Positions 36,099-53,065 of a stretch of DNA of 64,000 nt are shown here, piece after piece. Each line of letters starts with the position of its first letter. Position 1 is the first letter of the stretch. The stretch spans positions 124,001 to 188,000 of the forward strand of contig JAIXYO010000007.1 of the NCBI GenBank assembly GCA_027490215.1. The letters are read 5' to 3'. The notes below the pieces were generated by a model, which was not told the origin of the DNA, made no database searches, and worked only from the letters and a program-made list of their open reading frames with translations. The stretch is from Rubrivivax sp. GTDB lineage: Bacteria; Pseudomonadota; Gammaproteobacteria; Burkholderiales; Burkholderiaceae_C. Made by a program: the position numbers and the translations under genes.

Positions 36099-36902
36099 TC
36101 AGCCTAGAACGCGCCAAACCGAACTGCCCGCAGCGCTGTGGACCTCGGCGCGGGTGTCGTCGAGTGCCTGCCAGTGCATCGCTTCGGTGCGACCCTCGAA
36201 CTCGGGAAGGCTGGATCGCTCGATGTGCCAGGCACCGTTGTGCAGCCGCCCATACGAGATCTCGAAGTCGAGCAGCGTGGTGGCAGACGCCGGATGTCGA
36301 GCGAGCAGGGTGCCCAACGTGTCGCCGGGAACGGTGCCGTGTGGCCAGCCGACCCGCCGCGGTCGGACGCGCATCAAGTACTCACCGGCCAGCAGCAGAT
36401 AGGCACGTGCTGTCGCCAGCACCTCGGCATCGTCGCCTGGCGATGCCGAGGTATCGGCCAGCACCCGTGTGCGCCCGGTTGAGCCCGGCACGCGCTCCCA
36501 GACCTCGCGGTACACGCCATGCACACCGGTTTCGACGACGCGGTCGTCTCCGTCGAAGGCCATCCAGCCGGCATCGGGCGTCAGCCCTGGCGGATGCAGG
36601 TCGAGTCGGCGGTGCCAGGTACACACATCGCGTGGTACCTGCGCCAGCACCTCGGTACGACCGAAGAAGCCCTTTTGCTGCGCCAGCGCGAGGCACTGTT
36701 CAGTGCTCATCGTGGCCAGCCCGCTCTCCGCCCGGCCCACTTCGGCTTCAGCGGGCACACGCAGGTCGGCGTGCCAGCGCGCGGTCTGCAGCCAGCGCAC
36801 CCAGGTGGTGGTGTCCGAGCCCTGCGGCGTCTCGAGCAGCGTGCGCTGCCATACACCGCAGTAGCGCTCGGGAACGTCGAGCCAGGCGACGCGGCTGCTC
36901 AC
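36099..36902 (-). CDS. Unknown protein, last gene of the guanidine-riboswitch operon
   Basis: A 267-aa soluble protein rich in Trp (VWQRTLL; VRWLQTARWHADLRVP; REVWERVPG), probably a beta-barrel or lipocalin-like fold. It starts with a GTG that overlaps the stop of the preceding hydrolase gene (GTGA), so it is certainly translated with the operon. No catalytic motif is evident. Location implies a role in whatever the second riboswitch operon degrades; this is inference only. Confidence 0.7.
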   Translation of the reverse strand: MSSRVAWLDVPERYCGVWQRTLLETPQGSDTTTWVRWLQTARWHADLRVPAEAEVGRAESGLATMSTEQCLALAQQKGFFGRTEVLAQVPRDVCTWHRRLDLHPPGLTPDAGWMAFDGDDRVVETGVHGVYREVWERVPGSTGRTRVLADTSASPGDDAEVLATARAYLLLAGEYLMRVRPRRVGWPHGTVPGDTLGTLLARHPASATTLLDFEISYGRLHNGAWHIERSSLPEFEGRTEAMHWQALDDTRAEVHSAAGSSVWRVLG

Positions 36903-37705
36903 GCCACGAACTGCGGAAACGCCGGCAGCGAGCGGAAGAACGGAAAGTCGTGATTCGGCCACAGCCAGGCGCCAGTGTCGGCGGCCAGCGCCTTCAGCTT
37001 GCGGATACTGGCAATGGCCTGCGCCTCGCGGCCCTGCCACAGCGTGCCGGGCGCGACCTCGTCATCGATGTTTTCCTGCAGATCGGCCGCATCGCCGGCC
37101 AGCAGGACCGGTGGGCCTTTCGGCATCTCGATCCACATCGACATGTGGCCGATGGTGTGGCCGGGCGTTGCCACCGCCTGCACGCCGGGCACGACGCTGT
37201 ACTCACCCGCGTGCAATCGAAACTGCAGCGGCGCGCCAACGTCGTCGATCAGGTCGTCGGGGAACACCGCCGGGTCCGCGCCGCTGAGTGCCACCTCCAT
37301 CTCGTCACGCTGCACATGGATTTCGGCACCGCAGCCGCAGCGTCGCAACTCGCGCAGCCCGCCGGCATGGTCGAAATGCAGGTGGCCGATGAAGATCACG
37401 TCGACATCGGCCGGCGTCAGACCGAGCCGCGCCAGATGCTGCGGAATACGCTGCTCGTCGCGCATGTCCGGCGCGCCAAATTCGAAGGTCGCCGGGTTGT
37501 AATGACGATCGCGGGCGACCGGGTCGGCGATCTTTGTGTGGTCGCAGCCCACGTCGTACAGGATGCGGCCGTTCGCGGTCTCGATCAGGTACGCGAGGAT
37601 CGGCGCCTCGATCTGCTGGCCGCGTCCACGCTGCCAGGTCGAGATCGATTTGTCGTACCGATGAGTCGCGGTCAGCAATGGCCAGAGTTTGCGAACCTGT
37701 GTCAT
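36899..37705 (-). CDS. Metallo-beta-lactamase-fold hydrolase (lactonase-like)
   Basis: A 268-aa MBL-fold enzyme with the zinc motif HLHFDH (His108, His110, Asp112, His113), a further His in ATPGHTIGH, Asp in LLAGDAADL and His in WPNHDFPFF. The arrangement matches N-acyl homoserine lactonases and related lactone/cyclic amide hydrolases. The stop overlaps the next gene and the start overlaps the upstream cysteine hydrolase (ATGA). In this operon a lactam, lactone or hydantoin-like ring is a plausible substrate; not proven. Confidence 0.85.
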   Translation of the reverse strand: MTQVRKLWPLLTATHRYDKSISTWQRGRGQQIEAPILAYLIETANGRILYDVGCDHTKIADPVARDRHYNPATFEFGAPDMRDEQRIPQHLARLGLTPADVDVIFIGHLHFDHAGGLRELRRCGCGAEIHVQRDEMEVALSGADPAVFPDDLIDDVGAPLQFRLHAGEYSVVPGVQAVATPGHTIGHMSMWIEMPKGPPVLLAGDAADLQENIDDEVAPGTLWQGREAQAIASIRKLKALAADTGAWLWPNHDFPFFRSLPAFPQFVA

Positions 37706-38358
37706 GGAGTCTCCTTCTCGCTGATGCGCCGCAGCTGCGCAATCAGTGTGGTGCTGTCGATCACCGTACCGAAGATGCCGCCCTCGACCGCAATCATCGC
37801 CAGCGCCGGTTGCTGCAGCGCCGGATCAGAGGCCGCACAGGCGTCGCTGACCGTGATGCAACGCAGGCCGTGGTCGGTCGCCGCGCGCAGCGTGGTGTGC
37901 ACGCAGACCTCGGTGGTGACGCCGCAGATGATGACCGTATCAGTGCCCCAACCACGCAGGATCTGGTCGAGATCGGTCTGGTGGAAGGCGCTGTAGCCGG
38001 GCTTGTCGATGACCGGCTCGTCGGCACGCGGCCGCAGCTCGTCGACCAGCCCGTGGCCCGGTTCGCCACGCACCAGCAAGCGACCCAGCGGCCCGGTCGA
38101 GCCGATCTCGGCGCCTGCGTGGCGGCTGCGCTCCAGCTTGGCCGGCGGGCAGTCGGACAGGTCGGGCCGGTGGCCTTCTCGGGTGTAGGCGATGCGCAGT
38201 CCGGCCGCTCGCGCCGCATCGATCAGCGCACACACAGGTGCCAGCGTGGCGCGCAACCGCGATACGTCGACGCCCGCCTGTGCCGCGTAGCCGCGTGGGT
38301 CGAGGAAATCGCGCTGCAGGTCGATCACCAGCAGCGCAGTGCGGGCCACGTCGAACAT
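37702..38358 (-). CDS. Isochorismatase-fold cysteine hydrolase, biuret/guanylurea hydrolase-like
   Basis: A 218-aa amidohydrolase. The catalytic triad is visible: Asp13 in VIDLQRDF, Lys119 in VIDKPGYSAF and Cys152 in GVTTEVCV. The segment YTREGHRPDLSDCPPAKLERS followed by RLLVRGEPGHG closely resembles biuret hydrolase BiuH and its relatives, which include guanylurea hydrolase; that resemblance is from memory, not a search. Biuret hydrolase yields allophanate, guanylurea hydrolase yields guanidine, and both products are substrates of the neighbouring operon. Its stop overlaps the MBL gene. Confidence 0.85.
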   Translation of the reverse strand: MFDVARTALLVIDLQRDFLDPRGYAAQAGVDVSRLRATLAPVCALIDAARAAGLRIAYTREGHRPDLSDCPPAKLERSRHAGAEIGSTGPLGRLLVRGEPGHGLVDELRPRADEPVIDKPGYSAFHQTDLDQILRGWGTDTVIICGVTTEVCVHTTLRAATDHGLRCITVSDACAASDPALQQPALAMIAVEGGIFGTVIDSTTLIAQLRRISEKETP

Positions 38359-38384
38359 CGGCTTGCTCGTCTCGACCGAACTCG

Positions 38385-39149
38385 TCAGCCGAACTCGTGC
38401 GTGATCGCTGCGGCAATGCGCGTCGACAGCTCGGCCGCCATGACTGCACCTTTCTCGACGCTGGACCCGCGCGCCGACGACAGCACACCCGACAGCGGCA
38501 CCCAGTGTTTGCGCGTCGGGTACACGTCATACGGCGGGAAGTCGGCCGGTGGCTCGTCGGGGATCAGGTCCAGCCGCACCAGGCTCGGGTGGTAGTGCAG
38601 CATCATCGAGGTCTCGATGACCGCCGCATGTTCCAGTGCGAAGCCGGGGAAGCCGTCGGGGAACACGCTGGCCAGCGTGGCCTCCGACAGGAAGTCCCAG
38701 TACTCGAGGCGCATCACCTGCAGTGTCGAGTGAGCACCCAGGTCGCGCAGGCCGAGGTCGATGCCTTCGGTCAGGAACCACTGGTTCTCGTAGTGGCCGT
38801 TGACGAACACCAGCTTGGTGGCGCCGTGCCTTGCGAACTCGCGCACCGCGTCACGCACCGAACCGATCAAGGTCGCTGCGTCGACGCTGGTGGTGCCGCA
38901 GAAGTGCTGGCCACCGCCGCACTTCGGCTGCGACTTGTAGCCGTACGACAGCGTCGGTGCGACCAGCGCGCCGATGCGCGCGGCGGCATCGGCGGCGACC
39001 GCTGCGGACAGCAGGCCGTCGGTGCCCAGCGGCAGGTGGGGGCCGTGCTGTTCGAGCGCGCCGACCGGCAAAAGGATCGCCGGCTGGTCCTGCTTGATGC
39101 GCGCCTCATAGTCGACCCACGACAACTGGTTCATCCAGACAGTGCTCAT
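38385..39149 (-). CDS. Creatininase (creatinine amidohydrolase)
   Basis: A 254-aa enzyme that interconverts creatinine and creatine. All metal ligands of Pseudomonas creatininase align with an offset of one: Glu33 and His35 (GALEQHGPH), Asp44 (LGTDGLL), His119 and Glu121 (NGHYENQ). The GYKSQPKCGGG loop, TTSVDAATL, and SSARGSSVEKG also match true creatininase better than the wider family. ATG at 39149 overlaps the EamA stop. No creatinase gene is in the window. Confidence 0.88.
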   Translation of the reverse strand: MSTVWMNQLSWVDYEARIKQDQPAILLPVGALEQHGPHLPLGTDGLLSAAVAADAAARIGALVAPTLSYGYKSQPKCGGGQHFCGTTSVDAATLIGSVRDAVREFARHGATKLVFVNGHYENQWFLTEGIDLGLRDLGAHSTLQVMRLEYWDFLSEATLASVFPDGFPGFALEHAAVIETSMMLHYHPSLVRLDLIPDEPPADFPPYDVYPTRKHWVPLSGVLSSARGSSVEKGAVMAAELSTRIAAAITHEFG

Positions 39150-40075
39150 GCAATCTTCTCCTTGGGTGTGGAATCGTTCGGATCGGTGGCTTCGATCAAT
39201 GCGGCAACAGCAATCAGCACGCCACCAGCCCATTCAAGCGGCCGCAACGACTCATCGCCCAGAATCACGGCCGAAACCACAGCCACCAGCAGCTCGACGG
39301 TCAGGATCACGCCCGCGCGGCCGGATTCGAGGTGGGTCACACCGTACTGCCAGGTGGCTGTCGCCAGCACCAGCCAGATGAAGGCATAGGCGGCGAGGCC
39401 CAGCGCGAGCGGGGCACTGATCACCGGCACGACGTCTCCGGTCAGCAGCACAGTGATAGCAGACACGATCCCGCTGCCCAGGAAAACCACCGCTGTTTTC
39501 GACAGCATCGGGATCGCTTGTGCGGCGCGCGCGATCAGGTTGTTACCAGCAAAGGCCAGGCCTGCTGTCAAGGCCAGCCAGTCTGCGGCGCCCAAGGGCT
39601 TGGACCAGGCCGCATCGCCACCGATCACGAACCACAGTCCAACCAGTGCCAATGCCACTGCGAGCGCTCGGCGGCGGCCGATCTTCTCGCCGAGGAACAC
39701 GCGTCCGCCCAGCACCGACCAGACCGGCGCGAGGTAGAACAGCAGCATCACCCGCACCACATCGCCGATCACCAGCGCCTGCACGAACGCGCTGTTGGCA
39801 AAGCCGCCAACCGCCATCAACGACAGCAGCAGTACAACGTGCGCTTGCCAGGCGCGGCGTTCGCGCCACAGGAAGCCGATGCCGCACACACCGAGGACGC
39901 CGTAGCAAATCAAGGACAACACAGGCCCCGACAGGCCAGCGTCAGCGAATCCCTTCAACGGCAACCACAGCAGGCCCCACAGAAAGGCCGAGGCCAACAG
40001 CACCAGCGTTGGTCCGCGGGTACCGCGCGAGGTCGGGCTCGCAGCGACGATCACAGGAGAGGTCGCGGGAAACAT
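39146..40075 (-). CDS. EamA/DMT superfamily transporter
   Basis: A 309-aa membrane protein with ten predicted helices in two EamA repeats (LVLLASAFLWGLLWLPLKG; WLALTAGLAFAGNNLIARA) and a C-terminal LESGRAGVILTVELLVAVV typical of the second repeat. The family moves amino acids and metabolites. Its place in a guanidine-riboswitch operon suggests import or export of a guanidine compound. It lies between an SDR gene (16 bp) and creatininase (4-bp overlap). Confidence 0.85.
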   Translation of the reverse strand: MFPATSPVIVAASPTSRGTRGPTLVLLASAFLWGLLWLPLKGFADAGLSGPVLSLICYGVLGVCGIGFLWRERRAWQAHVVLLLSLMAVGGFANSAFVQALVIGDVVRVMLLFYLAPVWSVLGGRVFLGEKIGRRRALAVALALVGLWFVIGGDAAWSKPLGAADWLALTAGLAFAGNNLIARAAQAIPMLSKTAVVFLGSGIVSAITVLLTGDVVPVISAPLALGLAAYAFIWLVLATATWQYGVTHLESGRAGVILTVELLVAVVSAVILGDESLRPLEWAGGVLIAVAALIEATDPNDSTPKEKIA

Positions 40076-40091
40076 CGGCGTTGTCGGGGAC

Positions 40092-40874
40092 TCATGCCAT
40101 CAGCGAGCCGCCATTCGGGCTCAGCAATTGCCCGCAATAGAAGCGCGACAGGTCCGACAGCAGGAACAGCACTGTGGCAGCGATCTCATCGGGCTCGCCG
40201 AAGCGGTGCTGGGGGATGTCGAGTTCCTTCGCTATCCATTCCGGGCTCATGTGTTCGGTTGACACCATCGCGGTGGCGACCGCACCAGGGGCGATCGCAT
40301 TGACGCGGATGTTCGGCGCGAACTCGCGGGCGAGGGAGCGCGTCAGGCCGATCACCCCGGCCTTGGCGGCACAGTAGGGCGCAAATTGCGCGCGGCCCAG
40401 CACGCCGAGATCGGAGGCGATGTTGACGATCACCCCGCTGTCACGGGCCACCATGCCGGGCAGCACCGCCTTGCACATCAGGAAGACCGACTTCAGGTCG
40501 GTGTCGAGCATGCGGTCCCAGTCGGCTTCGGTCGTGTCGAGGAAGGGCTTTTCCTGCAGGATTCCGGCGTTGTTGACCAGGCCGTCAATCGGCCCGAAGC
40601 GCTCCTCCACCGCACGGACCATCGCGGTCGTCGCGGCGGGCTGGGTCACGTCGGCCTCGAAGGCCCGTGCCGAGGCGCCGATCGCGGTCAGCTGCGCCAC
40701 GACGGCCTCGGCCTCGGCAGCGCGGCCGAGGTGGTTGACCGCAACCGCCGCGCCGGCACGACCACAGGCCAGTGCAGTGGCTCGGCCGATGCCAGTCGCA
40801 GCCCCCGTGACCAGCACGACATGGCCGGCCAGGTTCAGGCGAAAGGCCTCGGTGTGTGCTTGTTCGGTGGTCAT
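40092..40874 (-). CDS. Short-chain dehydrogenase/reductase (first SDR)
   Basis: A 260-aa NAD(P)-dependent oxidoreductase. The nucleotide motif TGAATGIG (residues 24-31), NNAG, the catalytic Ser in VNIASDLGVLG and the YCAAK motif are complete. Its ATG overlaps the stop of the second SDR gene by one base (TGATG). Substrate is unknown; in context, an alcohol or hemiaminal formed by the desaturase-like enzyme is possible. Confidence 0.88.
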   Translation of the reverse strand: MTTEQAHTEAFRLNLAGHVVLVTGAATGIGRATALACGRAGAAVAVNHLGRAAEAEAVVAQLTAIGASARAFEADVTQPAATTAMVRAVEERFGPIDGLVNNAGILQEKPFLDTTEADWDRMLDTDLKSVFLMCKAVLPGMVARDSGVIVNIASDLGVLGRAQFAPYCAAKAGVIGLTRSLAREFAPNIRVNAIAPGAVATAMVSTEHMSPEWIAKELDIPQHRFGEPDEIAATVLFLLSDLSRFYCGQLLSPNGGSLMA

Positions 40875-41698
40875 CAATTCATTACCTCCCCATGGCTGGC
40901 GCTGATGGCCTGGCCGGTCAGAGAGCGCGCATCGCGGCTCGCCAGGAACAGGAACACGCCGGCGATGTCGGCTGCGTCCAGCATCGTCGGGTTGGCCTGT
41001 CGCGAAAGAATCTCTCGTTCGACCTCGGCTTCGCTGCGCCCCTGCGCGACCGCCATGCTGGTCAGTGAGCGCAGGGCAGCATCGGTGCGGATCCAGCCTG
41101 GACACACCGCGTTGACGCGAATACTGCGCGGCGCCAGCTCCCAGGCCAGTGAACGGGTGAGACCGATCACCGCATGCTTGCTCGCCACATAGGCAGAGAA
41201 GTCAGCCACACCAGTGAGGCCCCAGATCGATGATTGGTTGATCACGCTGGCGCCTTGCGGCATCAACGGCAGCAGCGCCCGGGTCAGTTGCACCATGGTG
41301 TCGACGTTGTTGTGCATCAGCGCCGACCAGCGCGCGGCCGCATCGGGTGCTGCATCGGCGAGCGGTGTCGGGTATTCGGTGCCGGCGTTGTTGACCAGCA
41401 CGTCAACCTGCCCGTGGCTCGCCTGCACGGCGGCGGCGAAGGCCTGCAGATCGGTGTCGCGGCTCAGGTCAGCCGGGATCGGTGTCACATCCTGCGCGTC
41501 GGCCAGTTCGCCGACCAGGCGGTCGAGGGTGGCCGTGTCACGGTCGGTCACCACCAGTCGAACGCCTTGCCCGGCAAATGCACGTGCCAGCGCGCGACCG
41601 ATGCCACCAGCTGCCCCGGTCAACACCACGGTGAGGCCCTGCAGGCCGTGACAGGGCTCGGTTCGCCGCCCGAACCGCGAAGACGTGTCGACCGTCAC
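40874..41698 (-). CDS. Short-chain dehydrogenase/reductase (second SDR)
   Basis: A 274-aa SDR with LTGAAGGIGRALARAF, VNNAGTEYPTPLAD, the Ser in INQSSIWGLTG and the YVASK motif. It starts with GTG at 41698, directly after the desaturase stop. It is not a close duplicate of the neighbouring SDR, so two different oxidation steps are likely. Member of the tightly overlapping riboswitch operon. Confidence 0.87.
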   Translation of the reverse strand: MTVDTSSRFGRRTEPCHGLQGLTVVLTGAAGGIGRALARAFAGQGVRLVVTDRDTATLDRLVGELADAQDVTPIPADLSRDTDLQAFAAAVQASHGQVDVLVNNAGTEYPTPLADAAPDAAARWSALMHNNVDTMVQLTRALLPLMPQGASVINQSSIWGLTGVADFSAYVASKHAVIGLTRSLAWELAPRSIRVNAVCPGWIRTDAALRSLTSMAVAQGRSEAEVEREILSRQANPTMLDAADIAGVFLFLASRDARSLTGQAISASHGEVMN

Positions 41699-41699
41699 C

Positions 41700-42707
41700 T
41701 CAGACCGCCGTCAGGAACGACACGCCCACCGCACCGACGAAGCCATCGGCACGGCCGGGCACCTCGGGATCGCGAACCTCGCCGTAATCGCCCGAGAGCA
41801 CGCGGGTGACGCGATGGCGGTGAAACGCCTTCAGCAGTTGACTCACCGGCACCACCTGGCGGTAGCCATCGCCGTAGAGCTCGCGGTGATAGGCCGGCAG
41901 GCGATGCCAGGGCACGGTGGGTCGTTCGTGGTGGGCGTTGTGATACCCGAAGTTCAGCCACAGCAGGTTCAGCCAGAAGCTGTCGAGCCCGACAACGTTG
42001 CTGAAGGTGTTGGCCTGTTCGTAGGCACGGTCACGCACCTTGTCGTTCGGGATCGGTGCGTCACCCAGGATCGGGTAGGCGTCGTAGGTGTGCTGGAAAC
42101 AGTCGGCGAAGCGCAGCACCGTGACGAACGCCAGGTAGGCGATGAAATACAGCACCAAGGCTTTCGGCGAATACCAGCCGAGCGCGGCGAACGCGCCGAA
42201 TCTCAGCAAGGCAATGCCGACGATGCGAGCACGTGTGGCGTTGGAGCCGCCCGGCTTGAACGGCAGCGCGACCACGAAGCCGCGCATCAGGAATTCGACT
42301 GCTGGGAAGTAGGCCCACTCCAACGCCAGCACCCCTCGGCGCAGCCAGGAGGGCGCGGCCAGCAGAAAGCCGCGCGCATCGAAGGTGATCACGTCGGCCC
42401 GCTCGACGTGATGGCGCATGTGCTTGCGCCGCAGGTCGCCGAAGCGTGCATAGCAGCTGCCGTTGAGCCAGCTCATCAGCGTACCCCAGCGCTCGTTGAG
42501 CGCCGGGTTGCGGAAGATGGCCTGGTGGGCGAATTCGTGGATGTAGTACGCCGACCACACAAGGGTCAGCGTCAGCAGCACGAATCCGACCGCGTTGAGC
42601 GCCCAGGACGGCACCGTCAGCAAGGCGATGCCGACCGGGTAGCCGACCAACGTGAAGGTCAGCGCCGCGATGTTGGGCGCGACGCCGTCCGGGGCTCGGA
42701 AGCTCAC
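41700..42707 (-). CDS. Membrane fatty acid desaturase/hydroxylase family protein
   Basis: A 335-aa integral membrane protein with the three histidine boxes of the di-iron desaturase/hydroxylase family: HEFAH (57-61), HMRHH (96-100) and HNAHH (256-260), plus His206 in CFQHTYDAY. Four hydrophobic segments support the family topology. Members desaturate acyl chains or hydroxylate small molecules. In a guanidine-responsive operon a small-molecule hydroxylase is more likely than a lipid enzyme (inferred). The ATG overlaps the stop of the solute-binding protein gene by 4 bp. Confidence 0.88.
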   Translation of the reverse strand: MSFRAPDGVAPNIAALTFTLVGYPVGIALLTVPSWALNAVGFVLLTLTLVWSAYYIHEFAHQAIFRNPALNERWGTLMSWLNGSCYARFGDLRRKHMRHHVERADVITFDARGFLLAAPSWLRRGVLALEWAYFPAVEFLMRGFVVALPFKPGGSNATRARIVGIALLRFGAFAALGWYSPKALVLYFIAYLAFVTVLRFADCFQHTYDAYPILGDAPIPNDKVRDRAYEQANTFSNVVGLDSFWLNLLWLNFGYHNAHHERPTVPWHRLPAYHRELYGDGYRQVVPVSQLLKAFHRHRVTRVLSGDYGEVRDPEVPGRADGFVGAVGVSFLTAV

Positions 42708-43756
42708 TTCTTCACCAGCGCGTTGACGAATTGCGCGTCGATGGTCGCCTCGGTGGCAGGCACCGTGGTGATCTGGCCCTTGGCCTTCAGCAATTCGGAA
42801 ATGACCTCACCGCTGGCGTAGTACGAGGTGGTCTCGGTTCCCTTGGTGAAGGCCTTCGGCATCTCGGCAAGCGGGATGTTGTAGACGCCCGACCACTGCT
42901 CCTTGACCTCTTTCGCCGAGACGCCCATCACCTTGCCAATGATCTTGGCCGCCTCGTCCGGCTTGGCCTTGATGTAGGCCAAACCATCCAGGTAGGCCTG
43001 GATGACGCCGGAGATCTCGGTCGGCTTGGCCTTGATGACCTTCTCATCGAACACCAGCACGTCGGCGATCAGGCCGGGGGCATCCTTCGACGAGAACACC
43101 ACCTTGAACTTCTTGCCGCCGCCCTGGCTGACGATCTGCGACAGGCTGGGCTCGTAGGTGACGCCAATCTGCATCTGACCGGACGCCATCGCGGCAGGCA
43201 CCGCTTCGGGTGTCATGTTGACCGGCACGATGTCCTTATCGGTCAGGCCGTTGACCTTGAGCGCATACGACAGCAGGAAGTCGGACGGCGACAGCGGGTT
43301 GAAGCCGACCTTCTTGCCCTTGAAGTCGGCGACCTTGGCGATGCTCTTGTCCGCCACGATCGCGTCACCGCCGTTCGAGTAATCGATCGGCATCACCACC
43401 TTCTGCGGCCGGCCGGCGGCGACCTGTCCGATGACCTGGTCATAGGTCAGCATGCCGCCATCGACCGCGCCGCTGGCGATGGCCGACGGGATCAGCGCCG
43501 GGTCGGTGAAGATCTGCAGGCTGACCTTCAGCTTGTATTTCTTGAACAGGTCGAGCTTTTCCGCCACATAGAACGGCCCATAGCCGATCCATACGACGGT
43601 GCCGATCTTCATCGGCGTCACATCGGCCGCGTGGCCGGCCACTGCGAACGCAGCCAGCGCCAGACCCGCCACCGGTTTGGCCAGCGAGTTGCCGAGACGA
43701 CGCAGCAGCGCCGCAGGAGGGAAAACGGAAGAGCGAAGGGGACGGAAAGAATCCAT
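42704..43756 (-). CDS. ABC transporter periplasmic solute-binding protein (NMT1/TauA/SsuA type)
   Basis: A 350-aa exported protein with a signal sequence ending near AAFAVAGHA and a SsuA/NMT1-type binding fold (KIGTVVWIGYGPFYVAEKLDLF; TDPALIPSAIASGAVDGG). The ATG at 43756 has a GGAG ribosome site and lies 58 bp after the riboswitch. No permease or ATPase follows it; the matching TauC- and TauB-like subunits are in the other riboswitch operon. It probably binds guanidine or a substituted guanidine. Confidence 0.9.
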   Translation of the reverse strand: MDSFRPLRSSVFPPAALLRRLGNSLAKPVAGLALAAFAVAGHAADVTPMKIGTVVWIGYGPFYVAEKLDLFKKYKLKVSLQIFTDPALIPSAIASGAVDGGMLTYDQVIGQVAAGRPQKVVMPIDYSNGGDAIVADKSIAKVADFKGKKVGFNPLSPSDFLLSYALKVNGLTDKDIVPVNMTPEAVPAAMASGQMQIGVTYEPSLSQIVSQGGGKKFKVVFSSKDAPGLIADVLVFDEKVIKAKPTEISGVIQAYLDGLAYIKAKPDEAAKIIGKVMGVSAKEVKEQWSGVYNIPLAEMPKAFTKGTETTSYYASGEVISELLKAKGQITTVPATEATIDAQFVNALVKK

Positions 43757-43813
43757 GTCGAGAGCTCCAGGTGAAAGAAACGGGCGCAGGAGAAGACGTT
43801 TTCGATCCGTCAA

Positions 43814-43926
43814 TCTCCCGGGCTTTTATCCCTCCGTGGAGCCTCGACAGTGCCGTTGACACGGCAACCATCCAGGCCGGGCCACTCTCGGACCAGCACC
43901 GGCATCGCTGCCGATCGGAACCCTAG
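43814..43926 (-). ncRNA. Guanidine-I (ykkC) riboswitch, left-hand operon
   Basis: On the minus strand this 113-nt stretch carries the conserved blocks of the guanidine-I class in the right order: CTAGGGTTCCG at the 5' end, GGTCCGAGAG in the middle, CACGGAGGGA, then AAAAGCCCGGGAGA at the 3' end. Pairing arms are visible (CGGCAGCGATGCCG; TGCCGTGTCAACGGCA). The class switches genes on when guanidinium binds. It precedes the solute-binding-protein operon. The interval 43757-44049 holds only this, the sigma-54 promoter and leader sequence. Confidence 0.93.
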
Positions 43927-43991
43927 TGACCCTGAGTGTGAGGAGTGCCTGGCATGAACCTGCGAACTCGCTCCACCTGCCCACGTATCCA

Positions 43992-44007
43992 AGCAATCCA
44001 CATGCCA
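43992..44007 (-). promoter_or_regulatory. Sigma-54 (-24/-12) promoter of the left-hand riboswitch operon
   Basis: TGGCATGTGGATTGCT on the minus strand fits the sigma-54 consensus (TGGCAc-N5-TTGCw) with the invariant GG and GC at the correct spacing. Transcription would begin near 43980, about 55 nt before the riboswitch. A TGGTGCA half site (44025-44031) upstream could be part of an NtrC site, but only one half is seen. It points to nitrogen-limitation control. Confidence 0.75.
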
Positions 44008-44049
44008 GTGGTTGACGGTCCATTTGCACCAAGTTGAGCCACGCCGGTG

Positions 44050-45876
44050 TCAGGCCAGTGAAGCCAGGTAGGCGCGCCAGCCACCGAGCGCGGTGATGTC
44101 CTTCGCGTCCGTCACGGCGTGGCTTTCGCAGACGAAGCCCTGGACCGACGAGCCGTCCTCGAGCAACACCGTACCGATGCCCAGCGGCGCCGGGATGCCT
44201 GCGACGAACGAGCCGAACTCGCGCGCCGGCAGCTCCCACACCTCCAGTTCGACGGCACCCCCCCCTTGTTCGACGCGAACCATGCCGGGGCGGAACGGCG
44301 GGCCGCCGGGCAGGGCATAGAAGCGGTAGGCCGGCGCGCTGCGAACCGTCCGCACCAGCGTGGCACCGCGCTGCGTCAGCTGCCCGTTCAACGGCAGCCC
44401 ATTCAGGTGCGCGCCGCACACCGCGACCCGCACCTGGCCCGACGGGAAGGCGGCTTCGCTGGGCACGCCCGCAGTCAGGTGCGGCGCATGCGCGGTGGCA
44501 CCCACGGTGGCGACGGTGCGTGCATGCAGCCGCGAGGCCAGCGTCAGCAGGGGCAGGTCCTGACCGCAGCGGCCGATCAGCGTGACGCCGTGCGGCAACC
44601 CGCGCGCGGCGCCCTCGGTGGCAAAACCTACGGGCACGGCCACCGCCGACAGGTCGAGCAGGTTGACGAAGTTGGTGTAGTGGCCGAGCTGCGAGTTGAG
44701 CGCGATCGGGTCGGCTTCGACAGCGGCGATCGTGTGGATCGTCGGCGCGGTCGGCACGACCAGGCAGTCGATGTCGCCCCAGGCGGCGCGCGTCTCGTGT
44801 TCGAGAGCCTTCAGCCGGTACAGCGCCGCAAAGGTGTCCACGGCGGAGATGCGTGCACCCGCTTCGGTGATTGAACGCGTCACCGGGTGCAGCGCTTGCG
44901 GATGCGCGTCTATGAACGATCGGATCGCCGCATAGCGTTCGGCCACCCACGGGCCCTCGTACAGCAGGGTCGCCACGCTGCGAAACGAGGTCAGATCGAT
45001 CTCCACCGGGACACCGCCGAGCGCTTGCAGATGCTCGACCGCCTGAGCGTAGTGTGTCGCGCCGAAGGCGTTCGCGTAGAAGACCAGATCCTGCGGACGC
45101 GGCACACCGAAGCGGAACGTTGCCGTCGCGCCGAAATTGTGTCCGTGCGGTGGCATCGTGCGGGAATAGGCGTCCCCCGTATCAGGCCCTTGTGCGGCGG
45201 CCAGCACGGTCGCCGCATCGGCGGCAGTCAGCGTGAACACCGACACCACATCGAGCGTGCGACAGGCCGGCACAACGCCGGTGGTCGGGATGCGGCCCAG
45301 GCTGGGCTTCAAGCCAATCAGGTTGTTGAACGCCGCAGGCACCCGGCCTGATCCCGCGGTGTCGGTACCCAGCGAAAAGCTCGCGAGGCCCAGGGCCACC
45401 GAGACCGCTGAGCCCGATGACGAGCCGCCGGAGATGAAGGTCGGGTCGAACGCGTTGCGGCAGGCGCCGTACGGTGAGCGCACGCCGACCAGACCGGTGG
45501 CGAACTGATCCAGGTTGGTCTTGCCCAACGGAATCGCCCCGGCGTCGATCAGCCGCTGCACCACCGTCGCGCTGTGCTTGGGCGTGTACGCGAATGCGGG
45601 GCAGGCGGCGGTGGTCGGCACTTCGGCCAGGTCGATGTTGTCTTTGATTGCGAACGGGATGCCGTAGAGCGGCAGCGTCTTCGGATCACGGCCTTCCAGT
45701 GCGCGGGCGTGATGCGTCAGCGCCTCCAGCGACAAGCGCTGGATCCAGATGTTGCGCGGCGAGGCCTCCTCCAAGGCCTCGATCTGCGCATGCAGTTCGG
45801 CGACGAGTTGCGTCGGCGTCAGCGTGCCTGCCAGGTAGCGCGCCCGCAAGGCGGGCAGGGACAAATCGAGTGGCAT
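44050..45876 (-). CDS. atzF: Allophanate hydrolase
   Basis: Hydrolyses allophanate to ammonia and CO2, the last step of guanidine (or urea) use by the carboxylase route. The 608-aa protein has an amidase-signature domain with catalytic Lys78 (AIKDNID), Ser residues in SGGSSSGSA and nucleophile Ser176 (TDTAGSGR), then the C-terminal allophanate-hydrolase domain (VAVCGAHLNGLPLNGQL; YRFYALPGGPPFRPG). The ATG at 45876 has AAGGA upstream; an ATG at 45930, overlapping the carboxylase stop, is an alternative. Confidence 0.95.
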   Translation of the reverse strand: MPLDLSLPALRARYLAGTLTPTQLVAELHAQIEALEEASPRNIWIQRLSLEALTHHARALEGRDPKTLPLYGIPFAIKDNIDLAEVPTTAACPAFAYTPKHSATVVQRLIDAGAIPLGKTNLDQFATGLVGVRSPYGACRNAFDPTFISGGSSSGSAVSVALGLASFSLGTDTAGSGRVPAAFNNLIGLKPSLGRIPTTGVVPACRTLDVVSVFTLTAADAATVLAAAQGPDTGDAYSRTMPPHGHNFGATATFRFGVPRPQDLVFYANAFGATHYAQAVEHLQALGGVPVEIDLTSFRSVATLLYEGPWVAERYAAIRSFIDAHPQALHPVTRSITEAGARISAVDTFAALYRLKALEHETRAAWGDIDCLVVPTAPTIHTIAAVEADPIALNSQLGHYTNFVNLLDLSAVAVPVGFATEGAARGLPHGVTLIGRCGQDLPLLTLASRLHARTVATVGATAHAPHLTAGVPSEAAFPSGQVRVAVCGAHLNGLPLNGQLTQRGATLVRTVRSAPAYRFYALPGGPPFRPGMVRVEQGGGAVELEVWELPAREFGSFVAGIPAPLGIGTVLLEDGSSVQGFVCESHAVTDAKDITALGGWRAYLASLA

Positions 45877-45929: not shown

Positions 45930-48900
45930 TCAGCGCAGCAAGACCAGCGGCTGACCTGCGGTAACCGGTTGCCCTTCGGCACACAGCACCTCGTGCACCA
46001 CGCCATCGCGCGGCGCCAGCACGGTGATCTCCATCTTCATCGACTCGACGACGATCAGCGTGTCGCCGGCCTGAACCACGCGGCCCTTCGCGACCGGCAC
46101 CGACCAGACGCCGCCCGAGACTTCGGAGGTGACAACCTCTCCGTCGAAGGTGCTGGCGGCTGCGGCACGAGCTTCGGCAGCGGGGTCGATGCTGTCGTCG
46201 ACCACCTCCGCCACGCCGGCCTCGCGCCAGCGTTCCCGTTCGGCCTCGAAGGCCGCTTGTTGCCGGGTCTTGAACGTGGTGATTTCCGCCGCGTTGTCGA
46301 CCAGGTAGCGCTGGTAGTCAGCGAGCTTGAAGCGGCCCTCCTCGATGCGCAGCTGGGCCCGGCCTGCCACGAAGTCGGCGCGAAGTGTCAGCAGCTCGTC
46401 GGCACCGACCGGATAGAAGCGCAGCCGGTCGAAGAATCGCAGCAGCCATGGCTTGCCAGGTTCGAAATCTCTCGTCGCCTTCCAGCGATTCCACATCTGC
46501 ACCGTGCGGCCGACGAACTGGTAGCCGCCCGGGCCTTCCATGCCATAGACACAGAGGTAGGCGCCGCCGATGCCGACAGCGTTTTCCGGCGTCCAGGTGC
46601 GCGCCGGGTTGTACTTGGTGGTAACCAGCCGGTGCCGCGGGTCGAGCGGCGTGGCGACCGGTGCGCCGAGGTACACGTCGCCCAGGCCCAGCACCAGATA
46701 GCTCGCCTCGAACACCGTGTCGTAGACGGCCTGGATATCGTCCAGACCGTTGATGCGGCGGATGAACTCGATGTTGCTCGGACACCAGGGCGCATCAGCG
46801 CGCACCGACTGCATGTACTTCTCGATGGCCAGGCGGGTCGCAGCGTCGTCCCACGACAGCGGCAGCCAGACGGTGCGGCTGGGCACCTCGATGTCGTCCG
46901 TCGACCCGACGCCGTGCTGCGCATCGAGCAAGGCGTCCATCAGCGTTGTCAGTGCGATGCGCGACGGGTCGTAGTGCACCTGCAGCGAGCGGATGCCCGG
47001 CGTCAGGTCGACGATGCCATCGAGTTGCCCGTCATCGCGCCAGGCTTGCAGCCGCAGCATCAGCGCATGCACATGGAAGCGCAGCGTCAGGTCGAGCTTC
47101 AGCTCGCCGAACTCGATCAGCACATAGGCATCGCCGGCTCGGCGGTAGACGATCTCGATGCCGTCCTCGCCAGCGGCGCGGCGGTGCAGCACCGCCGCAT
47201 CGGCCAGCTCCGTGCGTGCGGGCGGTGCAGCGACAGGTGGTGCAACATCGGTTGCCAGCACCGCATCCTGTGCCCGGGCCAGTGCTCTCGCCTGTTCCAG
47301 CGTCAACGGCTTGAAGCGCACCGTGTTGCCGGGAGACAGCTGCCCCAGCTTCCACAACTCGGCCTGCACCACCGTCGCCGGGCAGACGAAGCCACCGAGG
47401 CTGGGCCCATCGGGGCCGAGGATGACGGGCATGTCGCCGGTGAAGTCGATCGCACCGATCGCATAGGCGTTGTCGTGGATGTTCGACGGATGCAGCCCGG
47501 CCTCGCCGCCGTCGCGTCGCGCCCAGGCGGGTTTCGGGCCGATCAGCCGCACGCCGGTGCGGCTGGAGTTGTAGTGCACCTGCCAGTCGGTCGCGAAGAA
47601 GGTGGTGATGTCGTCGGGCGTGAAGAAGTCGGGCGCTGCGTGCGGGCCGATCAGCACCCCGATGTCCCAGTGCGTGGCGTAGACCGGCGTGAGCGCGGCA
47701 GCGGCGGCGACATCGAGCGGCGCCACCCGAGCCGACACGGGACTGATGTGCAGCACATCGCCACCACGCAGCACACGCCCGCCATGACCGCCGAACTGGC
47801 CCAGCGTGAAGGTCGAGGCGCTGCCCAGGTAGTCGGGTACATCGAGGCCGCCCTGCACGGCAAGGTAAGCCCGGCTGCCGCCCGCTGGGTTGACGCGGCC
47901 GATGCGCAGCGTCTGACCGGCCTCGACGGCCAGGGCCTGGCCCATGACCACCGCCTGGCCATCCAGCGTCAAGTCGATCGGTGCGCCGCACACCGCGATG
48001 CATGCGGCACAGCGGAAGCGCAGCGTCGGTCCGGCAACGGTGATCTCGAGCCCGGCCACGCCCTGTGCGTTGCCGACAAGCCGGTTTGCGACCCGCAAGG
48101 CCAGCGGGTCCATCGGGCCCGACGGCGGCACGCCGACATCCCAGTAGCCCAGCCGGCCCGGCCAGTCCTGCACCGAGGTCTGCACCCCGGGGCTGATCAC
48201 ATCCAGTGCGCCGCTGGGCGCGCTGAACGACGCGAGGCTGCGCGTGGTGTGCGTGCCTTGCTCGAAGGGCACAAAGGACATCACGCCGCGCAGGTAATCG
48301 AGGTTCGATTCAAGGCCGTCGACGCGGGTGTCGACCAGCGCCTTCGACAGCTTGGCGGTCGCGTCGTGGCGGTCGCTGCCGTGCGCGATCAGCTTGGCCA
48401 GCATCGGGTCGTAGTAGGCCGTGACCTCGGTGCCGCGCTCGACCCAGGTGTCGACGCGCAGGTCATCGGGGAACTGCACGCGCGTCAGCACGCCGGTGGC
48501 TGGCTGGAAGTTCTTGTAAGGGTCTTCGGCGTACAGGCGCGCCTGCACCGCATGGCCGGTGCTGGCGATGTGCAAGCTGTCCAGTGCCGGCATCTCGCCC
48601 GCGCCTAGCTTCACCATCCATTCGACGATGTCGATACCGGTGACCGCTTCGGTGACGCCGTGCTCAACCTGCAGACGCGCGTTCACTTCGAGGAAATAGA
48701 AATCCTGCGTGCTCGCGTCGACAACGAACTCGACGGTACCGGCGGAACGGTAGTTCGCCGCCTGAGCCAGTCGGCGTGCGGTGTCGTGCAGTGCCGCGCG
48801 CACTTCGGAGCGCAAGTTCGGCGCCGGGGCTTCTTCGACGACCTTCTGGTTGCGCCGCTGCAGCGAACAGTCGCGATCGCCGAGCGCCAGCACACCGCCG

Positions 48901-49550
48901 GCGCCATCGCCGAAAACCTGCACCTCGATGTGGCGCGCGTCGGTGATGTAGCGCTCGATGAACACGCCCGCATCCGAGAAATTGCTTTGAGCGAGCCGCC
49001 GCACGGTGTCGAATGCCGCGCGCAACTCATCCGGGGTGGTGCACATCTGCATGCCGATGCCGCCGCCGCCGGCGCTGCTCTTGAGCATGACCGGGTAGCC
49101 GATTCGCTCAGCGTGGGCCAGTGCATCGCTCAGGTCGGACAGCAGGCCGGTACCCGGCAGCAGCGGCACGCCGCTGTCGGTGGCCAGCGCGCGGGCGGTG
49201 TGCTTCAGGCCGAACAGCCGCATCTGCTGGGGCGTCGGCCCCAGAAAGACCAGGCCCGCGGCTTCGCAGGCTTCGACAAAACCGGCGTTCTCCGACAGGA
49301 AGCCGTAGCCGGGGTGGATCGCCTGCGCGCCCGTGGCGAGCGCCGCGTCGATGATCCGCGTGTGGTTCAGGTAGCTCGCAGCGACGGGCGCCGGGCCAAT
49401 GCAGACCGAGGCATCGGCCATCGCCACATGGGGCGCGCCAGCATCGGCGTCGGAATACACCGCGACTGCGCCGACGCCGAGGCGCTTGAGCGTCCGGATG
49501 ATGCGGCAGGCGATGGCGCCGCGGTTGGCGATCAGGACCTTGGTGAACAT
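45930..49550 (-). CDS. Guanidine carboxylase (urea carboxylase family)
   Basis: A 1206-aa biotin enzyme carboxylating guanidine with ATP and bicarbonate. Residues 1-450 are biotin carboxylase (IANRGAIACRIIRTLKRLG; KSSAGGGGIGMQM; GVTEAVTGIDIVEW). Residues 460-1070 form the KipA/KipI-like carboxyltransferase (GPMDPLALRVANRLVGN; GYQFVGRTVQMWNRW). The C-terminus is a biotinyl domain with the lysine at 1172 (VVESMKMEIT). The guanidine call, over urea, rests on the riboswitch and the two deiminase genes directly upstream; sequence alone does not prove it. Confidence 0.88.
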   Translation of the reverse strand: MFTKVLIANRGAIACRIIRTLKRLGVGAVAVYSDADAGAPHVAMADASVCIGPAPVAASYLNHTRIIDAALATGAQAIHPGYGFLSENAGFVEACEAAGLVFLGPTPQQMRLFGLKHTARALATDSGVPLLPGTGLLSDLSDALAHAERIGYPVMLKSSAGGGGIGMQMCTTPDELRAAFDTVRRLAQSNFSDAGVFIERYITDARHIEVQVFGDGAGGVLALGDRDCSLQRRNQKVVEEAPAPNLRSEVRAALHDTARRLAQAANYRSAGTVEFVVDASTQDFYFLEVNARLQVEHGVTEAVTGIDIVEWMVKLGAGEMPALDSLHIASTGHAVQARLYAEDPYKNFQPATGVLTRVQFPDDLRVDTWVERGTEVTAYYDPMLAKLIAHGSDRHDATAKLSKALVDTRVDGLESNLDYLRGVMSFVPFEQGTHTTRSLASFSAPSGALDVISPGVQTSVQDWPGRLGYWDVGVPPSGPMDPLALRVANRLVGNAQGVAGLEITVAGPTLRFRCAACIAVCGAPIDLTLDGQAVVMGQALAVEAGQTLRIGRVNPAGGSRAYLAVQGGLDVPDYLGSASTFTLGQFGGHGGRVLRGGDVLHISPVSARVAPLDVAAAAALTPVYATHWDIGVLIGPHAAPDFFTPDDITTFFATDWQVHYNSSRTGVRLIGPKPAWARRDGGEAGLHPSNIHDNAYAIGAIDFTGDMPVILGPDGPSLGGFVCPATVVQAELWKLGQLSPGNTVRFKPLTLEQARALARAQDAVLATDVAPPVAAPPARTELADAAVLHRRAAGEDGIEIVYRRAGDAYVLIEFGELKLDLTLRFHVHALMLRLQAWRDDGQLDGIVDLTPGIRSLQVHYDPSRIALTTLMDALLDAQHGVGSTDDIEVPSRTVWLPLSWDDAATRLAIEKYMQSVRADAPWCPSNIEFIRRINGLDDIQAVYDTVFEASYLVLGLGDVYLGAPVATPLDPRHRLVTTKYNPARTWTPENAVGIGGAYLCVYGMEGPGGYQFVGRTVQMWNRWKATRDFEPGKPWLLRFFDRLRFYPVGADELLTLRADFVAGRAQLRIEEGRFKLADYQRYLVDNAAEITTFKTRQQAAFEAERERWREAGVAEVVDDSIDPAAEARAAAASTFDGEVVTSEVSGGVWSVPVAKGRVVQAGDTLIVVESMKMEITVLAPRDGVVHEVLCAEGQPVTAGQPLVLLR

Positions 49551-49624
49551 GGCGGGCTCAGCGGAAAGCAGGTCGTCCTGCGCTCATCGAATGCACGCAC
49601 CGGTCGTCCGGCGCGGCGTGGCCA

Positions 49625-50299
49625 TCAGGCCGGGTCCCAGACCAGGAAGCGCACCGGCGTCGGGTTGTAGCCATTGCACGGGTTGTTCAGCTGCGGGCAG
49701 TTCGACACCAGCACGACCACGTCCATCTCGGCGCGCATCTCGACGTACTTGCCAGGCGCTGAGATGCCGTCCTCGAAGGTCAGCTTTCCTGCGGGCGTCA
49801 CCGGCACGTTCATGAAGAAGTTGATGTTGGAGACCACATCGCGCTTGGTCAGACGCGGCACACCTGACATCGCCTCGCTGCCCGCTTCGATCTGCGCCAG
49901 CGCCAGCATGAAGCTGTCGCGGCAGCTGTGCATGGTGCGCTTCTCGATCGCGTAGCGCACGGTGTTGCTCTCGCAGGAGCAGGCACCTCCCAAGGTGTCG
50001 TGGCGGCCGCAGGTGTCTGCGGTGATGGTGAGCATCGGGCGCGCTTCGCTCGACATCAGCACCGAGCCCGCCGTCAGGTACAGCGCACCCTGCGCCTGGA
50101 TCGTGTGCGTCAGGCTGTAGCGCTCGCCGACATCGGCCGCGCTGTAGAAGATGGTGTCGACAGCCTGGTTGCCTTCGAGGTCGACGATGCGAAATGTCTG
50201 CCCGCGTCTGAGCACCTTTGCCCACGGGTCTCCCGCCAGGCACACCTCATCGATCACTGCGTCGATGGGGTCCAACTTGCTTTCCACGGTGGCGTGCAT
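49625..50299 (-). CDS. cgdB: Carboxyguanidine deiminase subunit CgdB (urea amidolyase-associated protein 2)
   Basis: A 224-aa DUF1989-family protein that, with CgdA, removes ammonia from carboxyguanidine to give allophanate. Motifs are [37 protein letters not shown] and [14 protein letters not shown]. The ATG at 50299 overlaps the cgdA stop (TGATG). 74 bp separate it from the carboxylase. Older annotation calls it UAAP2. Confidence 0.92.
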
Positions 50300-51081
50300 C
50301 ACAGGAACCCCCGCTCGGTGTTGATGTAGCCCCGGTCGTTTTCGGGGCACAGCAGGCGACACACATCGTCGGCCCCGGCGGTGCCGGAACGCCAGGCGGT
50401 CAAGCGCACTGGGGTCGGCGCATAGCTCGTCGCGGGATCGAGCGGGTGCGGCGCCGACGACAGCACGAGCAGCACGTTCATCTCGAAGCGCACATCCACA
50501 TGCTGGCCGGGCGCGCGATGCGTGGTGTCGAAGCGCAGCCGGCCCGCCTCGTCGGCGACCGCCTTGCTGAAGAAGTTGACGTTGGCGACCACGTCGCGCC
50601 GGTCCAGACCCCACTTGGCCAGCTCGACGAGAAAGCCGTCGTGGCCGTTGCGGTACATCCCGTTCCGATGGGCCTGGTAATTCGCCTCGCCCCAGCGGCG
50701 GCGCACGGTATCGGCATCGATCACGCCGCACACCGTGTCGTGCCAGCCGCAGCTGTCCTCGGGGATCGAACACAGCACCCGACCCATGTCGGAATACAGC
50801 GCATGGCCACGCGTCAGGTGCGCGGTGTGCTGCGCCTTCAGCGTGTCGGGCATGTTGTAGCGCTCGGTCTTTTGGTCCTGGTTGAAGAACAGCGCCGACA
50901 CATTGGCGCGGCCTTCGAGGTCAATCAGCCGCAGCGCGGTGCCACGGCGCAGCACGCCTGACCAGTGGGCGCCGCCGGGCAGGTTGTCTTCCCACAGCAC
51001 GAGCTCGGGCGAATACGGCGTGGAACGGTCCGGCACGGCAGCGCGTGCCAGCGGCGTGAGGGTGTTGAAGTTCGTTTGCAT
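50299..51081 (-). CDS. cgdA: Carboxyguanidine deiminase subunit CgdA (urea amidolyase-associated protein 1)
   Basis: A 260-aa DUF1989-family partner of CgdB. Conserved features: [38 protein letters not shown] and [13 protein letters not shown]. The last residues ECRGY-like ([14 protein letters not shown]) are typical of the first subunit. Related in sequence to CgdB but not identical in length, as expected for a heteromer. Lies between the ABC ATPase gene and cgdB. Confidence 0.92.
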
Positions 51082-52848: not shown

Positions 52849-52910
52849 CGAACGCTCCAGGGCAGTGGCACAAAGCGAGAGGGGCAGCCACCGTCCGCTG
52901 ACGACAACTT

Positions 52911-53007
52911 CCTCCCGGGCTTTTGTCCCTCCGTGGAGCCGCGATGCATTGCGGCCGACCGCTCTCGGACCAGTCCACCTGGCGCTAGACCAGGCACGGA
53001 ACCCTAG
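52911..53007 (-). ncRNA. Guanidine-I (ykkC) riboswitch, right-hand operon
   Basis: Minus-strand blocks in order: CTAGGGTTCCG, GGTCCGAGAGCGG, CCACGGAGGGA and CAAAAGCCCGGGAGG. A TGCCTGGTCTAGCGCCAGG arm follows the first block. Length about 97 nt, shorter than the left copy because the variable arm is reduced. It precedes the guanidine importer and degradation operon. The 315-bp interval 52849-53163 contains this RNA, the sigma-54 promoter and leader only. Confidence 0.94.
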
Positions 53008-53065
53008 CTGTCTTGCAGATCAAGCAGCGCCGCTGAAGCAGGTGCCACTCTCGCATCTCGTAGAA

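Follow-up and report, generated by a model that had tools for sequence, protein, structure and literature searches.

A 64,000-nt stretch of the Rubrivivax sp. contig JAIXYO010000007.1 (the window, whose positions serve as coordinates unless another locus is named) carries nine co-oriented genes behind a Guanidine-I riboswitch, on the minus strand from 43937 to 36099. We propose, with a probability of roughly 0.6, that these genes form a nitrogen-scavenging operon that converts N-substituted guanidines, above all methylguanidine, to guanidine for the neighbouring carboxylase operon. Nitrogen shortage (through a sigma-54 promoter) and guanidine (through Guanidine-I) would turn the operon on, and a periplasmic binding protein (SBP) would deliver to the importer of the companion operon. 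A desaturase-fold membrane di-iron enzyme (DES) would hydroxylate the N-methyl carbon of methylguanidine to N-(hydroxymethyl)guanidine, for which two exits are conceivable: (a) cleavage to guanidine and formaldehyde by an MgdL-family lyase, the ninth protein (MGDL), or (b) conversion to N-formylguanidine by the second of two SDR-family proteins (SDR2) and then to guanidine and formate by a creatininase-family amidohydrolase (CRN). An isochorismatase-like hydrolase (ISO) would free guanidine from guanylurea or a like acylguanidine. The computed results behind this proposal are the gene content, the conservation of riboswitch and promoter, the homology to MgdL with its catalytic residues, the linkage of SDR2 and creatininase, and the likeness of ISO to guanylurea hydrolases.

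The ninth protein and its desaturase-fold partner

In Vreelandella boliviensis, mgdH and mgdL are described as sitting between gca and atzF. MgdH, a 2-oxoglutarate dioxygenase, converts methylguanidine to N-(hydroxymethyl)guanidine, which is stable; MgdL, for which the model is a beta-barrel, cleaves this product to guanidine and formaldehyde and requires Asp49 and Arg51 (PMC12508155, 2025). A literature search on MgdL returned this paper alone, which does not contain the word "desaturase"; in the matching passages of PMC12186494 and PMC11410670 the word refers to NapI.

The ninth protein of the operon, listed as unknown in the initial annotation, matched no Pfam or NCBIfam family and turned out to be an MgdL homologue with the catalytic Asp and Arg. 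At two further loci, L115 and L113, a homologous gene lies directly 3' of a dioxygenase gene with DIOX_N and 2OG-FeII_Oxy domains; the L115 dioxygenase gene adjoins gca and that of L113 is one called open reading frame (ORF) away from it. The L115 pair lies between gca and atzF, with transporter genes interposed before atzF, and its homologue has Asp49 and Arg51 when counted from the printed start codon. Identity of the window protein to these two homologues is 35-37% in local and 28-34% in full alignment. The pair corresponding to D46 and R48 is kept in 67/67 DES-linked copies, 3/3 dioxygenase-linked copies and 4/13 unlinked copies, where linked means on the same strand within 9 kb and 83 of 84 copies were counted, one having a gap there. 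Since 8 of the 9 copies without the pair belong to one clade, its loss reflects few events and not nine. Fourteen positions, including W37, Q39, D46, R48, W96, E124, E133 and W135, are invariant in 39 aligned sequences, and the AlphaFold2 model is all-beta (mean pLDDT 95.0), with D46 and R48 on a single strand (43-49). A PDB search with the MGDL profile gave no match at E 10; the Pfam family HRI1 matched the L019 homologue at 27.5 bits (cut-off 27) and another homologue at 14.5 bits, and did not match the window protein. In the class, 6 of 368 other genomes yielded a homologue. By homology, the ninth protein belongs to the MgdL family, and it is predicted to be an N-(hydroxymethyl)guanidine lyase with catalytic D46 and R48. 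This homology strongly supports the earlier suggestion that a di-iron hydroxylase gives a hemiaminal which falls apart to guanidine and an aldehyde.

Loci L122, L124-L127, L129, L130 and L132 each carry one stand-alone MgdL homologue with no hydroxylase nearby. These form a clade in which Asp-x-Arg is replaced by Ser-x-Ala, Ser-x-Leu, Ser-x-Thr or Met-x-Asp, and which probably has a different function. The genome of L115 holds a second dioxygenase-MgdL-like pair (L116, 8557-10384, the dioxygenase reading as two ORFs), which keeps Asp and Arg, adjoins genes for an ABC importer, polyamine-like as judged by eye, and perhaps serves another N-alkylguanidine.

The histidines of the DES boxes HEFAH, KHMRHH, QH and HNAHH do not vary across 27 aligned sequences, and the three boxes of PF00487 are represented by H57/H61, H96/H99/H100 and H256/H259/H260. 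In Pfam only FA_desaturase was matched and the 2OG-FeII_Oxy fold is absent, so that DES is not an MgdH and may act alike. Because DES stands where a dioxygenase precedes MgdL elsewhere, it would be expected to make the MgdL substrate, and by this analogy we predict a membrane di-iron N-methylguanidine hydroxylase. We know of no desaturase-fold oxygenase for methyl removal from substituted guanidines. Among 399 genomes of the order, DES (E<=1e-40) was found in 31, MGDL (E<=1e-8) in 30 and both in 19 (Fisher 3.9e-17); a class-wide search (E<=1e-30) also found DES in 10 of 368 further genomes. Like GntB of guanitoxin synthesis (NF041365), by name a hydroxylase of a guanidino compound (arginine), DES would act on such a compound; the GntB model finds it only weakly, at 25.7 bits against a cut-off of 380, and membership was rejected. 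A PDB search with DES gave no match at E 0.1. Among plasmids, the single match came from a cyanobacterial plasmid of Gloeothece verrucosa (L121, 5884-12195), where a desaturase homologue of 38.5% identity lies in a biosynthetic-cluster-like row with genes for an ectoine synthase, an N-acetyltransferase, a tryptophan 7-halogenase and an HpaB-type monooxygenase.

At some DES loci a TIM-barrel (AP_endonuc_2-like) gene is found in the place of MGDL. Among 108 DES loci, 69 had MGDL only, 9 the TIM-barrel gene only, none both and 30 neither (Fisher 5.4e-5); many of the "neither" loci end at contig ends, and one region of genome G755 was counted twice. The loci compared here and below are related by descent and neither counts nor Fisher values are corrected for kinship, which could explain part of this exclusion. 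The TIM-barrel protein is a candidate replacement for MgdL and may be an unrelated lyase for the same hemiaminal. An NCBIfam search with it and with two dioxygenases yielded no family.

Riboswitch control, conservation and the companion operon

The match to RF00442 is full length (positions 1-107 of 107) and above the gathering threshold, from which guanidinium binding is predicted. The riboswitch starts at 43937, which corrects the edge previously drawn at 43926. A search of the Rubrivivax sp. genome found two Guanidine-I copies (43937-43813 and 53018-52910) and no third. The consensus of sigma-54 sites is TGGCAC-N5-TTGC, and such sites are common at nitrogen genes. The sigma-54-like match is weak when taken alone, the two strands of the window together holding 8 such matches; at homologous loci, 67 of 69 have a sigma-54-like site in the 170 nt before the aptamer, whereas shuffled sequences predict 0.38 and a control stretch gave 0. 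The riboswitch, the sigma-54-type site and the nine co-oriented genes of the initial annotation were confirmed (Table 1). Start and stop codons overlap at five of the eight junctions (SBP/DES, SDR1/SDR2, EamA/CRN, ISO/MBL and MBL/ninth gene), in line with the statement that most do; the remaining three have gaps of 1, 16 and 26 nt. A scan of the leader (43700-44060) found no terminator-like site, and translational control of the operon is therefore possible.

To describe the conservation of the gene set, genome contigs were scanned with a profile of the DES alignment, which returned 475 relatives; the locus counts rest on the best 80 of these, and the 52 loci referred to below are those with at least 8 kb downstream of DES. 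Partners at the 52 loci were SBP (51), MGDL (51), ISO (46), SDR2 (45), CRN (45), EamA (43), SDR1 (40) and MBL (35), and the complete nine-gene set was present in 18. Every one of the 52 carries MGDL or SDR2 plus CRN: 44 both, 7 MGDL only, 1 SDR2 plus CRN only and 0 neither. Of the 72 loci whose upstream sequence reaches 1.8 kb or more, 68 have a same-strand Guanidine-I match no further than 2.5 kb upstream; the pattern finder used agreed with Rfam on all 12 guanidine riboswitches of the window and eight loci, with no extras, having been built with some of them in view. The association of the gene set with ykkC RNAs, on which the initial annotation had staked its reading, thus holds at other loci and does not refute that reading. 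The same counts bear on the idea of a lipid or membrane-adaptation operon, in which DES would modify fatty acids under the denaturing stress of guanidine. The Pfam family FA_desaturase fits such a role, which the company of an MgdL homologue, ISO, CRN and SBP at 51, 46, 45 and 51 of the 52 loci and the sigma-54 site at 67/69 speak against; we rejected it as highly improbable.

Directly upstream lies the companion operon, in the order permease, ATPase, UAAP1, UAAP2, carboxylase and allophanate hydrolase. We take UAAP1 and UAAP2 to be the carboxyguanidine deiminase subunits CgdAB. The carboxyguanidine deiminase pathway has been described (PMC12508155, PMC9800807). A binding-protein gene is missing from the companion operon and stands first in the nine-gene operon, and exactly one similar SBP is found in 26/26 of the L024-L103 loci that have the companion permease (>=60% identity). 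On these grounds the SBP probably completes the ABC importer of the companion operon, and both operons very likely share one importer.

The operon can be regarded as a variant of the MgdH-MgdL system in which the hydroxylase is unrelated and exits have been added. As described for V. boliviensis (PMC12508155), Guanidine-I, carboxylase pathway genes, an ABC importer, an Asp-x-Arg protein of the MgdL family and an oxygenase occur together. Unlike in that system, the oxygenase here is a desaturase-fold membrane di-iron enzyme and not a 2-oxoglutarate/Fe(II) dioxygenase, and a separate operon contributes further enzymes, of the SDR, creatininase, isochorismatase and MBL families, together with an EamA transporter.

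Table 1. Positions of the features of the window and of genes at other DES or guanidine loci
Feature	Sequence	Positions	Strand	Basis or remark
sigma-54-type site TGGCATGTGGATTGC	window	43993..44007	-	5' of riboswitch; one mismatch to TGGCAC-N5-TTGC
Guanidine-I aptamer (RF00442)	window	43813..43937	-	78.3 bits, Rfam gathering score 63
SBP, NMT1/SsuA-like periplasmic binding protein	window	42704..43756	-	family searches
DES, desaturase-fold (FA_desaturase, PF00487)	window	41700..42707	-	125.8 bits
SDR1 (TGAAGGIG, YVASK)	window	40874..41698	-	family search
SDR2 (TGAATGIG, YCAAK)	window	40092..40874	-	family search
EamA-family transporter	window	39146..40075	-	family search
CRN, creatininase-family amidohydrolase	window	38385..39149	-	TIGR04448, 357 bits, cut-off 235
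ISO, isochorismatase-like cysteine hydrolase	window	37702..38358	-	best model BiuH (NF050097), 241.8 bits
MBL, metallo-beta-lactamase-fold hydrolase (HLHFDH)	window	36899..37705	-	AHL-lactonase/4-pyridoxolactonase-like
MGDL, MgdL-family all-beta protein, ninth gene	window	36099..36902	-	homology; D46, R48
sigma-54 site TGGCACCGACTTTGC, companion operon	window	53067..53081	-	5' of companion operon; only exact match in window
Guanidine-I riboswitch, companion operon	window	52910..53018	-	84.1 bits
ABC permease	window	51988..52848	-	family search
ABC ATPase	window	51108..51974	-	family search; start codon provisional
UAAP1, urea amidolyase associated protein	window	50299..51081	-	TIGR03425, 350 bits
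UAAP2, urea amidolyase associated protein	window	49625..50293	-	TIGR03424, 337 bits
Guanidine-II riboswitch	window	49568..49615	-	42.2 bits; 5' of carboxylase gene
gca, urea/guanidine carboxylase	window	45930..49550	-	TIGR02712, 1863 bits
atzF, allophanate hydrolase	window	44050..45876	-	TIGR02713, 797 bits
TIM-barrel gene	L016	5554-6393		
TIM-barrel gene	L017	8438-9286		
TIM-barrel gene	L018	6780-7664		
TIM-barrel gene	L020	11300-12142		
TIM-barrel gene	L022	8581-9417		
TIM-barrel gene	L134	5730-7263		two ORFs
TIM-barrel gene	L138	4583-6058		
TIM-barrel gene	L139	10842-11774		
TIM-barrel gene	L173	10405-11247		
creatininase/glutamine synthetase-like pair	L020	13266-15447		
creatininase/glutamine synthetase-like pair	L022	10465-12622		
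creatininase/glutamine synthetase-like pair	L112	14606-16760		
creatininase/glutamine synthetase-like pair	L177	13983-16144		

A possible second exit and the hydrolases

SDR2 and CRN were all-or-none in the 52 loci, 45 having both and 7 neither (Fisher 7.5e-9), and SDR1 occurred only alongside them (40/40). Both are also found with DES where MGDL is missing: L091 has SBP, DES, SDR2 and CRN, and L015 has DES, SDR2, CRN, ISO and MBL. A stand-alone DES-SDR-CRN trio lies at L172 (7836-10417), where no riboswitch (by the pattern finder) or MgdL was seen; its genome, G525, also holds a full operon (L146) and a third desaturase gene (L173), which a TIM-barrel gene with Guanidine-I and Guanidine-II patterns precedes by about 2.6 kb. 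A hydroxylase, a dehydrogenase and an amidohydrolase in a row suggest the sequence methyl, hydroxymethyl, formyl, hydrolysis. Creatininase cleaves the acylguanidine bond of creatinine, and N-formylguanidine would therefore be a fitting CRN substrate. Linkage and chemistry thus suggest a second exit through N-formylguanidine to guanidine and formate, for which SDR2 is predicted to be the dehydrogenase that converts N-(hydroxymethyl)guanidine to N-formylguanidine, and CRN the acylguanidine (formylguanidine) hydrolase. That these steps make up a new pathway, in which the DES hydroxylase, a hemiaminal dehydrogenase and a re-tooled creatininase give guanidine and formate with no free formaldehyde, beside the exit by an MgdL-family or TIM-barrel lyase, is put forward tentatively, with less confidence than an even chance. 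The SDRs may, as proposed earlier, oxidise the carbon fragment once it has been freed; oxidation of the intact hemiaminal agrees better with the close SDR-creatininase linkage.

CRN is 51% identical to the P. putida creatininase (PDB 1j2t), and all 62 operon copies (>=55% identity to CRN) keep the metal ligands E34, H36, D45, H120, E122 and H178 as well as Trp154. They differ from it at Trp174, which is Phe or Tyr in 62/62 (Phe in the window), and in being linked to DES and SDR2; for residue numbers and roles we presume the usual creatininase assignments, with Trp174 as a gate. At the Trp174 position, three further creatininases of the order (46-50% identity to CRN) carry Trp (L169, L170) or Val (L171, from the trio at L172). 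The L169 gene belongs to locus L175, where it stands behind genes for a cytosine-type permease and an M24/Creatinase_N protein, two genes from the latter, whose NCBIfam matches fall below cut-off and name peptidases, so that its naming as a creatinase is provisional. CRN of at least 64% identity was present in 21 of the 399 genomes of the order, of which 20 had DES; in the 21st, CRN lies at a contig end in a CRN-ISO-MBL row.

These results bear on creatinine, which the initial annotation had offered as a natural substrate. In such an operon CRN would open creatinine or 5-hydroxy- or 5-oxocreatinine, the SDRs and hydrolases would trim the product to methylguanidine, and DES and MgdL would free guanidine. 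CRN passes TIGR04448, its metal ligands and Trp154 are intact in 62/62, an abiotic route from creatinine through creatol (5-hydroxycreatinine) to methylguanidine has been described (PMC3775425), and abiotic creatinine decay is named as a source of methylguanidine (PMC12508155). Against this stand the loss of Trp174 in all 62 copies, which travel with DES and SDR, when two other creatininases of the order keep it, one near an M24-family gene; the lack of a creatinase/peptidase M24-family gene among the nine; and the presence of ISO at 7/7 loci without SDR2 and CRN, hence not as a fixed later step. An ordinary creatinine pathway is weakened by these findings; we consider such an operon quite unlikely, and creatinine less likely as the main substrate than methylguanidine and acylguanidines. 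Nothing points to the release of allophanate, which had also been suggested. A literature search found no paper linking a guanidine riboswitch with a creatininase; an archaeal genome is described with biuH near a creatininase-like gene (PMC12625717). The Rubrivivax sp. genome holds a second creatininase-family gene (C55). Elsewhere, a creatininase-family gene of another type forms a pair with a glutamine synthetase-like gene near guanidine importer, carboxylase or desaturase genes (Table 1); the L020 glutamine synthetase-like gene, the sole copy scanned, matched TIGR03105 (type III) at 671.8 bits.

ISO scored below the cut-off of 370 with its best model, BiuH, and differs in residues from the solved biuret hydrolase; a plain biuret hydrolase was rejected. 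ISO matched 956 plasmid records, and the highest identity, 60.1%, is shared by three wastewater Pseudomonas plasmids. On one of them, pMET-2, the sole ISO match adjoins a nucleoside deaminase gene, which fits BB_00025 of Pseudomonas mendocina MET, an assayed member of the guanylurea hydrolases (such as GuuH) described as encoded beside a deaminase gene (PMC9800807), and we take the two to be the same. ISO is 58-60% identical to the pMET-2 enzyme and shares with it Glu192, Tyr122, His102 and Arg16, positions taken by Gln, Lys, Trp and Ile/Thr in the solved biuret hydrolase and an amidase related to it; a cationic substrate is therefore plausible. D13, K119, C152 and E192 are present in 59/59 ISO copies (>=50% identity, over 170 aa), which includes the Asp-Lys-Cys triad that the pMET-2 enzyme has as well. 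The guanylurea hydrolase idea of the initial annotation is thus supported at the level of sequence, and unlike the plasmid enzyme, ISO is chromosomal and sits in a riboswitch operon with an oxygenase. Since ISO is present at the 7 loci (of 52) without SDR2 and CRN, it forms a module of its own. Plasmid pNRS527-2 of the ammonia oxidiser Nitrosospira encodes a hydrolase with 54-56% identity to ISO (L120, 5956-6648), near a short isochorismatase-family gene and a LysR regulator gene.

MBL contains HxHxDH and scored 136.3 bits with the AiiA model (NF045699, cut-off 375) and 131 bits with the 4-pyridoxolactonase model, again below cut-off. This lactonase likeness favours a longer N-alkylguanidine (for example guanidinoacetate, 4-guanidinobutyrate or an agmatine-like compound) as the compound hydroxylated, with the SDRs and MBL handling the carbon fragment. 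The L116 dioxygenase-MgdL pair beside another ABC importer likewise suggests varied substrates, and plant enzymes are reported to release guanidine from arginine and homoarginine via C-hydroxylation (PMC12508155). Such a substrate is unlikely for the window operon: V. boliviensis MgdL is described as specific for N-(hydroxymethyl)guanidine among the compounds assayed (PMC12508155), MBL is absent from 17/52 and SDR2 from 7/52 loci, and family searches of the nine proteins found no aldehyde dehydrogenase or thiolase.

Points against the proposal and its significance

Several observations weigh against the scavenging of methylguanidine as proposed above. The substrates of desaturase-fold enzymes are mostly lipids or hydrophobic compounds, and no electron donor was recognised for DES. 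An ORF near both operons (55202-56116, minus strand) looks ferredoxin-NADP reductase-like by eye and might supply DES with electrons. In 11 of the 30 MGDL genomes MGDL is alone, with no DES or 2OG gene seen near, and 12 of the 31 DES genomes gave no MGDL match, although in one of them, G755, a profile search alone revealed a divergent MGDL gene that follows a second DES. With 9 of 13 unlinked copies lacking the catalytic pair, membership of the MgdL family does not by itself fix function. DES loci L021, L023, L136, L141 and L142 have no operon partners beside DES, except for UAAP2-, carboxylase- and weak EamA-like matches on the opposite strand of L141. A similar SBP (29-35%) stands beside importer genes at L147 and at the more distant L016, L018, L022 and L112, and SBPs more divergent than this would escape the comparison. 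Exit (b) rests on linkage and chemistry, and a literature search found no paper on formylguanidine; L058, outside the 52 loci, has CRN and SDR1 and no SDR2, and five other loci outside the 52 with SDR/CRN discordance end within 2.6 kb of DES. MBL, EamA and SDR1 are left without a firm role. The Guanidine-I riboswitch of the published case is reported not to have bound methylguanidine (PMC12508155), and induction by methylguanidine would therefore need prior guanidine. All substrates and reactions of the scheme, above all the substrate of the hydroxylase and exit (b), are what we infer from the computed results.

Guanidine riboswitches are widespread and few sources of guanidine are known, and a 2025 review names the natural source of guanidine as a major gap (PMC12186494). 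The operon points to substituted guanidines as such a source in many Burkholderiales, and specific predictions, easy to assay, follow for the desaturase-fold hydroxylase, the SDR, the creatininase-family enzyme, the guanylurea-hydrolase-like enzyme and a TIM-barrel stand-in for MgdL. Should the tentative pathway with exit (b) prove true, three of its elements would be novel: the class of hydroxylase, the dehydrogenase step and the hydrolysis of the acylguanidine.

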